41,018 bases of DNA, taken from an uncultured Ignatzschineria sp. (lineage in GTDB: Bacteria > Pseudomonadota > Gammaproteobacteria > Cardiobacteriales > Wohlfahrtiimonadaceae). Below are positions 20,258 to 26,003 of the stretch, piece after piece. The notes under the pieces are model-generated. The model saw only the letters and a list, made by a program, of their open reading frames with translations, was not told the DNA's origin and made no database searches. Where the stretch lies: the NCBI GenBank assembly GCA_947632245.1, contig CANRON010000004.1, positions 1-41,018 of the forward strand, written 5' to 3'. Both the position numbers and the translations under genes were made by a program. Positions within the stretch are counted from its first letter, which is position 1. Every line of letters begins with the position of its first letter.

Positions 20258-20653
20258 TTTACCTCCAATATTTATTTAGCGTAGTGTGTTTGAACTATCA
20301 ACTCTTTAATAAAAAAGAACGTATTTAGATCCGACATCGATATATATGATGATGTAACGATTAACAGATTGTTAACAGATCGATCATATATTGCTTGGAA
20401 AATGATTTGGAAAGCCTTTTGTACTGCTTCTTTAGTATAAGACCATAAATACAGACTAAAATAAAAAGCACCCCACCCTAAAGAGAGTAGATCAATTTTA
20501 TTTTAAGTGAGGTAGTGAGCAAATCCTAAAGAGGAACTACTAGAGGCCTTCGTTATCGGTTAAAGCAAGTTTAAGCTACAAATTATGTCTTTGGGAAACG
20601 GTAACATGTTATGCTATAAACTAACTTCAAATCAATTCACAATAGCACATAAT
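20258..20653. promoter_or_regulatory. Divergent intergenic region between the NhaD-like gene and nadK
   Basis: About 395 bases. Two direct copies of TTAACAGAT lie at 20361-20369 and 20372-20380, one helical turn apart, a plausible activator or repressor site. Flanking ATATATGAT (about 20342-20350) and ATCATATAT (about 20383-20391) form an inverted pair around them. A plausible nadK promoter is TTGGGA (20591-20596), 18 bases, TATAAA (20615-20620). No gene was recognised. Confidence 0.45.
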
Positions 20654-21526
20654 ATGAGAAAATTTCAAAAAATCGCCCTAGTACTGAGCAATAAAGAGTC
20701 ACTTGAAATACAAGAGGCTGTTGCCCGTACAAAAGAAATTATGGATATCCATGGTGCATGTTATTTTGAAGTGAATAACTTAGAGTATCGTAATAAGTTG
20801 AGTTATCCCGATGTCATTATGGCGGAAATCTCAACATGCGACTTAATTATTGCCTTTGGGGGCGATGGGACCTTTTTAGGCATTGCCCGAAAAGTTCATC
20901 AGTTCAATATCCCTGTTTTAGGCGTTAATCTCGGACGATTAGGTTTCTTGACAGACATAGATCAAAAGACATTGCATACGCACTTGTCGGCAATTTTGGA
21001 AGGGGATGTTGATTATGAGGAGCGTTTTCTTTTAAAAGCTTCTATCAATGAAAATTTACGTTCTTTTGCGATGAATGATGTGGTGATTCATAAAACGGAA
21101 TTATCGCGATTGATAGAGATTGATGTCTATGTGAATGATCATTATTTATCCACATATCGTGCCGATGGGCTAATTTTAGCAACCCCCACAGGGTCAACTG
21201 CATATTCTCTATCTACGGGTGGGCCGATTATGTATCCATCGTTGCCGGCGATTGTGATTTCGCCCATTTGTCCCCATACATTCAGTCATCGTCCTTTAGT
21301 GATTCCCTCTAATTGCAAGATTGATGTCGTGACGAGTGATCGTGAAAAAGAGCCCGTGCATGTTACCTGTGATGGGCAAGAACTATTTACGCTCTCTAAT
21401 GATGAGCGCTTAACGATTGAACCCTCCACCCATCTTCTGACACTCTTACACGCGAAGGATTATAATTATTTTTCCATTTTAAGAGAAAAGCTTAACTGGG
21501 GGAATCAGCCCGTTATCAGAAGATAA
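20654..21526 (+). CDS. nadK: NAD kinase
   Basis: Phosphorylates NAD to NADP in the cytosol; 290 residues from this start, the usual length. The catalytic GGDG loop is in IIAFGGDGTFLGIAR (about 61-75), followed by NLGRLGFLTD and the NAD-binding TPTGSTAYSLSTGGP. I chose ATG 20654 (MRKFQKIALVLS), where family similarity begins. A -10-like TATAAA at 20615-20620 would put the transcript start after the two upstream in-frame ATGs (20585 and 20606). No strong Shine-Dalgarno is seen for any of the three. In many relatives nadK neighbours recN or grpE; here it is alone. Confidence 0.95.
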   Translation: MRKFQKIALVLSNKESLEIQEAVARTKEIMDIHGACYFEVNNLEYRNKLSYPDVIMAEISTCDLIIAFGGDGTFLGIARKVHQFNIPVLGVNLGRLGFLTDIDQKTLHTHLSAILEGDVDYEERFLLKASINENLRSFAMNDVVIHKTELSRLIEIDVYVNDHYLSTYRADGLILATPTGSTAYSLSTGGPIMYPSLPAIVISPICPHTFSHRPLVIPSNCKIDVVTSDREKEPVHVTCDGQELFTLSNDERLTIEPSTHLLTLLHAKDYNYFSILREKLNWGNQPVIRR

Positions 21527-23040: not shown

Positions 23041-23096
23041 TTTATTGGATGTGGAAATGCGTCGCTTTGGGGCACTAAAAAGTGTATTGGAGATGA

Positions 23097-23193
23097 TATC
23101 CTTCCCTGCGCTGGCATTATCCAGATCAGGTTCAAAGGGTCGGTTATTCACCTCTCAGCTGTAAAGCACCCCTAGGAACTATGAGTGAGGATA
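23097..23193 (-). ncRNA. TPP riboswitch (THI element) upstream of the symporter
   Basis: Read on the minus strand, the conserved TPP aptamer blocks appear in order: GGGGTGC, CTGAGA, ACCCTTTGAACCTGATCTGG, and ATGCCAGCGCAGGGAAGG. Terminal P1 pairing is TATCCT (minus strand 5' end, 23193-23188) with AGGATA (23102-23097). The aptamer ends 91 bases before the symporter start. No clear intrinsic terminator follows, so control is probably translational, although the exact switch pairing could not be settled. Confidence 0.96.
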
Positions 23194-23259: not shown

Positions 23260-23299
23260 AAGTTTCGAAGTGAGTGTGAGTATGTTATCTTTGCTTCTT

Positions 23300-23409
23300 G
23301 ACACGGGGTGTCTGCATTCTTGGCGTATTCATTAAAATACAATCATGCAATGACAGACTGAGAGAATACCCGTTGAACCTGATCCAGCTCATACTGGCGG
23401 AGGGATGTC
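23300..23409 (+). ncRNA. TPP riboswitch (THI element) upstream of the dehydrogenase/monooxygenase genes
   Basis: The aptamer blocks appear in order: GGGGTG (23305-23310), an extended P3 arm (about 23312-23350), ACTGAGAGAATACCCGTTGA, ACCTGATCCAGCTCATACTG, and GCGGAGGGATGTC. P1 pairs GACA (23300-23303) with TGTC (23406-23409). The start codon of the first gene is 61 bases downstream. A weaker hairpin at about 23410-23428 follows but has no adjacent U tract. Translational control is more likely than termination. Confidence 0.96.
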
Positions 23410-23469
23410 GGACATACATTGCATGTGTCGTTACATTACCTTTGCCGCTCAATTTTTTTGGAGGCAAAT

Positions 23470-25550: not shown

Positions 25551-25769
25551 CGTTACGATATAAAGTCATCAATAGAAAATTAAATTCATTGAAAGGCTCA
25601 GTGAAAGAAATAAATTTATAAAATCAATATATTAGTTGTTAAATTGAAGAGGATGTATTTAGGTTTTTTATAAAAAACAAAAAATAAAAAGGGCATTTGG
25701 TTGCATTTGTTTTTTTACGATATATACTCTACTCGTTTGTTTCGAGTAAGATGATAGAGAGATCAAAGA
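25551..25769 (+). promoter_or_regulatory. AT-rich spacer with promoter for the leader/amidohydrolase unit
   Basis: The first part is AT-rich without a gene. A 16-base palindrome GTTTTTTATAAAAAAC (25663-25678) and A/T tracts precede a good sigma-70 promoter: TTGCAT (25701-25706), 16 bases, TATACT (25723-25728). The tracts could act as an UP element. Transcription would begin near 25735, in front of the leader ORF. Confidence 0.6.
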
Positions 25770-25898
25770 ATGAATCGACGTATGAGCACAGTGAAGTTTC
25801 ATCAAGTCGTCCGCACAATGGGACCGACTCAATCATTCTCTATTTCTATTATTATCGATCAAGCTATTACAGATTTTATAGAAAAAGCCTCCATTTAA
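25770..25898 (+). CDS. Possible 42-codon leader peptide
   Basis: A small ORF with AGAGAG about 7 bases upstream of ATG 25770. It encodes 42 residues with a Ser-Ile-Ser-Ile-Ile-Ile cluster at residues 24-29 and its stop codon lies in the loop of the following intrinsic terminator, the geometry of attenuator leader peptides. A competing frame through the same DNA reads Tyr-rich (YFYYYRSSYYRFY) and stays open beyond the terminator to 25993, so the frame choice is uncertain. I see no homology to a known leader. It may also be a small RNA unit without translation. Confidence 0.35.
   Translation: MNRRMSTVKFHQVVRTMGPTQSFSISIIIDQAITDFIEKASI
25805..25829 (+). promoter_or_regulatory. Leader hairpin upstream of the attenuator-like terminator
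   Basis: AGTCGTCC (25805-25812) pairs with GGA-C-CGACT (25821-25829), eight pairs with one bulged C. Part of its loop and right arm (AATGG near 25817-25821) can alternatively pair with CCATT in the terminator's left arm (25891-25895), a possible switch pairing. Confidence 0.35.
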
Positions 25899-25914
25899 AT
25901 GGGGGCTTTTTTTT
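25882..25914 (+). terminator. Strong intrinsic terminator in the amidohydrolase leader
   Basis: A 13-base-pair stem (25882-25894 with 25899-25911, core AAAAAGCCTCCAT with one G-T pair) closes a 4-base loop and ends in a run of T. It lies between a good promoter and the amidohydrolase start about 90 bases further on, so read-through must be allowed or a second promoter used. Confidence 0.92.
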
Positions 25915-26003
25915 AGCTAAAAAAGTCACTGAGGACTTTAAGACACAACTTCAGTATCACACACATACACAGATCCATCATGAAAGAGAATAGGGAAATT
26001 ATT

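Follow-up and report, generated by a model that had tools for sequence, protein, structure and literature searches.

The stretch of DNA analysed here (the window, 41,018 nucleotides) belongs to a 2.02 Mb genome whose close relatives are Ignatzschineria, and carries on its forward strand a sigma-70-like promoter, a small open reading frame (ORF), an intrinsic terminator and a gene for a cytosine-deaminase-like amidohydrolase of the NCBIfam family PRK06886, in that order (Table 1). The −35 element of the promoter, TTGCAT (25701-25706), and its −10 element, TATACT (25723-25728), are separated by a 16-nt spacer, and the leader ORF runs from the ATG at 25770 to the TAA at 25896-25898, its predicted peptide being MNRRMSTVKFHQVVRTMGPTQSFSISIIIDQAITDFIEKASI. 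The stem of the terminator (25882-25911) has 13 bp and closes on a UUAA loop that contains the stop codon of the ORF, with the U8 tract at 25907-25914. Promoter, small ORF and a terminator holding the stop codon in its loop, all of which an earlier note on this DNA had described in front of the amidohydrolase, were thus located at 25701-25914. The amidohydrolase itself likely starts at ATG 26004, as it does in relatives, rather than at the upstream ATG 25980.

Table 1. Coordinates of the leader and controlled gene in the window, and of the downstream DHODH-like gene in four related loci
Feature	Position	Strand	Basis or remark
Sigma-70-like promoter, TTGCAT-N16-TATACT	25701..25728	+	Sequence; TATACT or TAGAAT at the equivalent site in relatives
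Candidate pause hairpin, formed by the purine-rich start of the leader ORF and the U/C-rich tract	25735..25863	+	Fold; weak
Leader ORF, 42 codons, stop within the terminator loop	25770..25898	+	Sequence; ORF reaches the terminator in 80/83 leaders
U/C-rich tract 5' of the terminator, candidate region of UTP-sensitive pausing by RNA polymerase	25833..25881	+	T-rich composition
Intrinsic terminator (attenuator), CCUCC/GGGGG stem + U8	25882..25914	+	Fold −16.6 kcal/mol; terminator in relatives
Controlled gene, cytosine-deaminase-like amidohydrolase, NCBIfam PRK06886	26004..27041	+	NF005365 460.6 bits; fold matches
DHODH-like gene	L044:3600-4664, L045:3627-4688, L047:3611-4666, L049:3520-4617		Directly downstream of the amidohydrolase

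Elsewhere in the window, two divergent TPP riboswitches (Rfam RF00059), at 23086-23183 on the reverse and 23294-23422 on the forward strand, have an SSF-family symporter gene on one side and a monooxygenase pair of the SDR/NtaA type on the other. These genes separate the NAD kinase gene of the window (20585-21526) from the amidohydrolase, which in other Ignatzschineria loci, L027, L030 and L050 among them, is immediately preceded by an NAD-kinase-like gene of 290 aa.

For comparison, 128 leaders of the PRK06886 gene were collected. By a strict rule, a terminator is present in 36 of 36 entries from Ignatzschineria (14/14, with some species represented in duplicate, from two collections), the sister genus (3/3), Orbaceae (18/18) and the metagenome-assembled genome (MAG) L049. 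For Pasteurellaceae the count is 49 of 91 leaders, and a looser rule finds more. Promoter, ORF and terminator follow one another in this order in the PRK06886 leaders of Ignatzschineria and Orbaceae and in roughly half of those sampled from Pasteurellaceae. When an ORF was counted as entering the terminator if it began with ATG, had at least 12 codons and ran without a stop to a point no more than 12 nt from the terminator, 80 of the 83 terminator-bearing leaders had one, against 24.2 expected from dinucleotide shuffles; the remaining three look like promoter mis-picks, L045 having such an ORF in an earlier scan. The ORF sequences diverge strongly among families, with little sequence identity, and the stop codon, which in the window falls within the loop of the terminator, lies past the terminator in many relatives. 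Among Pasteurellaceae leaders of the MLL type (MLLIKNxRIFxNI), the ORF has at least 28 codons in 26 of the 26 that carry a terminator under the looser rule and in only 19 of the 34 that do not (Fisher p = 4e-5, phylogeny ignored), an association between terminator loss and ORF loss that fits translation acting on the terminator. From these comparisons the window leader is very likely a translation-coupled attenuator, whatever its signal, and in this translation-coupled form the attenuator geometry proposed in the earlier note is strongly supported.

The Pasteurellaceae leaders vary further. Some contain two tandem hairpin-plus-U-run units, and many (within L141-L250) have at their 5' end a small CUAG...CUAG-like hairpin around the Shine-Dalgarno region; AATGTTATTAATnAAAAATCnGnGAATTTTTnATAACATT is near-invariant in many leaders of the same range, serving as both hairpin and coding sequence. 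The Haemophilus-type leaders L161, L162, L167, L168, L192-L196, L200 and L202 are without a terminator by either rule, and in many of them the ORF is broken too, yet the PRK06886 gene is retained. In Orbaceae (L032-L048), an element resembling TCTCAAAAATAATACTTTAACnATTTCATTTATTTATATATTTT is conserved 5' of the promoter.

A short terminated leader RNA of about 180 nt should be made under any model, including one in which the element is a stand-alone small RNA that ends at the terminator, as the earlier note had considered, or a plain unregulated upstream terminator. A simple promoter and terminator scan of the window would also suit that reading, since its counts were at chance level; it missed the terminator at 25882-25914, probably because the perfect stem takes up part of the U tract, so that only three T remain. 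However, the overlap of ORF and terminator is retained in three families despite little identity, the two decay jointly, and the window leader and 12 related loci gave no Rfam match at the gathering score. Wherever a relative has the element, it lies directly 5' of a PRK06886 gene; a separate small RNA is therefore unnecessary, and we regard this whole class of explanation as highly improbable.

The window leader as a whole folds more stably than 200 of 200 shuffles (z = −4.0), most of this value coming from the terminator. The upstream hairpin of the earlier note is present in the fold and, taken alone, exceeds chance only weakly: its z is −1.4 for the window, and eight further leaders from Ignatzschineria range from −0.7 to −3.3. 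For the candidate pause hairpin of Pasteurellaceae, compensatory changes occur at 9 of 12 pairs, a score reached by none of 500 shuffles, and many of these leaders place a U run between the hairpin and the terminator, all within reach of the ORF.

The identity of the signal was approached through the leader peptides. In a classical amino-acid attenuator, ribosomes held up at codons for Ile, Ser, Tyr, Leu or Phe would switch RNA structures, an idea suggested by the Ile/Ser cluster of the window leader and matched in Ignatzschineria and Orbaceae by the Ile richness of the 13 codons that immediately precede the terminator; the same codons are, however, Leu/Phe-rich in Pasteurellaceae, and the L010 and L031 leaders have one Ile. 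Comparing the leaders of relatives for conserved codons, as the earlier note had suggested, revealed no conserved residue or control-codon run across the clades compared. The overlapping Tyr-rich frame is real (ORF 25697-25993); it is the UAUUUCUAUUAUUAU stretch of the U-rich tract translated in a different frame, and scanning the ORFs of relatives turned up no Tyr-rich counterpart. The frequency of T at codon positions 1/2/3 is 0.24/0.42/0.62 in Ignatzschineria leaders against 0.13/0.28/0.36 in the structural gene, and 0.40/0.51/0.42 against 0.17/0.30/0.38 in Pasteurellaceae, the baseline being one structural gene per group, so that enrichment extends to the wobble positions. Over the 42 nt before the terminator, T is 0.43 and A 0.28 in Ignatzschineria; for Ignatzschineria and Pasteurellaceae together the ranges are 0.43-0.44 for T and 0.24-0.28 for A, and in Orbaceae the values are 0.39 and 0.36. 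To judge from these sequences, the conserved property of the leader is its U content rather than a residue. No antiterminator pairing to the terminator arm was seen in folds of the window and related leaders, and the gene lies outside amino-acid synthesis; we consider stalling at particular amino-acid codons very unlikely. With no conserved residue and U high at every codon position, what fits is UTP-sensitive attenuation of the kind that operates at E. coli pyrBI, not the sensing of an amino acid, be it Ile, Ser or Tyr.

We propose that the window leader is probably a pyrBI-type attenuator with UTP as its signal. RNA polymerase would initiate near 25735 and transcribe the leader ORF and then the U/C-rich tract. 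At high UTP, the polymerase would outrun the first ribosome, allowing the terminator at 25882-25914 to fold and transcription to end; at low UTP, it would pause in the U-rich tract, and a ribosome translating the 42-codon ORF could catch up and enter the 5' arm of the terminator, blocking the stem so that the amidohydrolase is transcribed. If the sensed pool is indeed UTP, the puzzle of a controlled gene that is not one of amino-acid synthesis would be resolved, as in pyrBI. Gilliamella is the weak point of the UTP model, having leaders without a clear U excess and weak covariation in the pause hairpin. The lack of U skew there would suit a translation-coupled attenuator of the same ORF-over-terminator geometry that senses translation rate, antibiotics, GTP/ATP or the product of the amidohydrolase, which would account equally for all the structural evidence. 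The U-rich tracts and the missing pyrB described below nevertheless favour pyrimidines, and the leaders compared share no arrest peptide across families, which makes these other signals unlikely.

The controlled gene points in the same general direction by its context. Its product matches the PRK06886 model NF005365 with 460.6 bits (cut-off 340), and the AlphaFold model (mean pLDDT 82.9) has 5-methylcytosine and cytosine deaminases as its top fold matches (TM ~0.79); sequence comparison, too, places it nearest bacterial cytosine deaminases. It shares the fold and metal-site motifs of CodA at 21-24 percent identity. Glu217, the catalytic residue of CodA, is replaced by Gln204 in all PRK06886-type proteins aligned, and a separate CodA-like protein in the window genome (L077) retains the Glu. 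A plain cytosine deaminase was rejected on this ground, the Gln indicating that PRK06886 is probably not one. Neither this attenuator nor a function for PRK06886 was described in the literature searched.

Among 152 PRK06886-positive genomes (10 of the Ignatzschineria group, 9 Orbaceae and 133 Pasteurellaceae), none has PyrB (aspartate carbamoyltransferase) over the cut-off, although these are few lineages, in three families, and the genome counts thus overstate independence. In the window's order, all ten scored genomes with PRK06886 (nine of the genus Ignatzschineria and one of the sister genus) are without pyrB over the cut-off, and all nine scored relatives without PRK06886 have it (Fisher p = 1e-5, phylogeny ignored). 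Weaker matches to the pyrB profile (L063, L079, L084 and L087; the window genome's L067 left out) bear the HCLP motif of ornithine carbamoyltransferases. In the G292 family, assigned to Pasteurellaceae through its uptake signal sequences (119 AAGTGCGGT against 1.5 expected), PRK06886 is present in 133 of 140 genomes and pyrB over the cut-off in none; the other seven (G419, G489, G518-G521 and G543) are without both.

Later steps of the pathway are present: PyrD and PyrF were detected in 21 of 21 genomes tested in the window's order. None of the ten Ignatzschineria-group genomes has dimeric PyrC, nor do seven of the nine Orbaceae tested, and in some of these genomes there are multi-type PyrC matches below the cut-off. 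In three Orbaceae (Orbus, Frischella and Zophobihabitans) and in MAG L049, a DHODH-like gene (Pfam DHO_dh) lies directly 3' of the amidohydrolase, assigned by profile search in Orbus and L049 and by sequence likeness in the other two; in Orbus and Zophobihabitans it is followed by a 96-aa ABM-domain-like gene. L049 is a GC-rich MAG contig labelled Methylobacteriaceae, the other carriers of the PRK06886 gene being gammaproteobacterial, and combines that gene with a terminator of the same kind and the DHODH-like neighbour. As to nutrition, Actinobacillus succinogenes, a species that may or may not be among the 140 Pasteurellaceae genomes, reportedly requires only Glu, Cys, Met and vitamins when grown in defined medium, with uracil unmentioned (PMC3091790), whereas H. 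influenzae appears in a list of pyrimidine auxotrophs (PMC13328217).

Since the attenuator architecture recurs in three PyrB-less families, PRK06886 may belong to an unrecognised pyrimidine pathway. Our tentative suggestion, which could well prove wrong, is that in Pasteurellaceae, Orbaceae and Ignatzschineria it acts in a route that replaces PyrB, and mostly PyrC too, and feeds PyrD, under a pyrBI-like UTP-sensing attenuator that arose or was kept with it. The bypass of PyrB is put forward as a hypothesis drawn from co-occurrence in few lineages and from gene context, and the link of the enzyme to pyrimidines is likewise one of context. The pattern exposes a gap, namely how UMP is synthesized without aspartate carbamoyltransferase in these bacteria, and offers a lead on the function of a hypothetical enzyme found in nearly all sampled Pasteurellaceae. 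We considered and rejected the idea that the leader was inherited from an adjacent pyrB, the pyrB loci of relatives being, by eye, without such a leader; no similar leader was found at pyrD of Ignatzschineria.

Among known systems, attenuators of the trp/his/ilv type likewise place a leader peptide, a hairpin and a terminator before a metabolic gene; they differ from the window and related leaders, in which neither conserved control codons nor an antiterminator was found. The closer likeness is to E. coli pyrBI, with its leader pyrL, in which a promoter, an ORF of about 40 codons, a hairpin (in the window a weak candidate), a U-rich tract, an ORF-overlapped terminator and the gene come in the same order, and which shares the pyrimidine context. 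The pyrL sequence used as control (a 100 percent match to E. coli records) has 88 nt from ATG to terminator arm, a hairpin, UUUUUCUUCCC and a terminator inside the ORF. In E. coli, suppression of the pyrL terminator by the advancing ribosome is established (PMC5021804), and nucleotide-specific pausing at pyrL was reported by Donahue and Turnbough (1994), according to the passage of PMC9291695 that cites them. The leaders of the window and its relatives likewise have an ORF running into the terminator and, in Ignatzschineria and Pasteurellaceae, a U-rich tract, for a mechanism that would need neither control codons nor an antiterminator. Unlike pyrBI, the gene behind the window leader is the PRK06886 amidohydrolase, in genomes without pyrB, and sequence homology to pyrL is undemonstrated; we therefore class the leader as a variant of the pyrBI type, not a member. 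If this reading is true, pyrBI-type attenuation would have moved to, or arisen on, a different gene.
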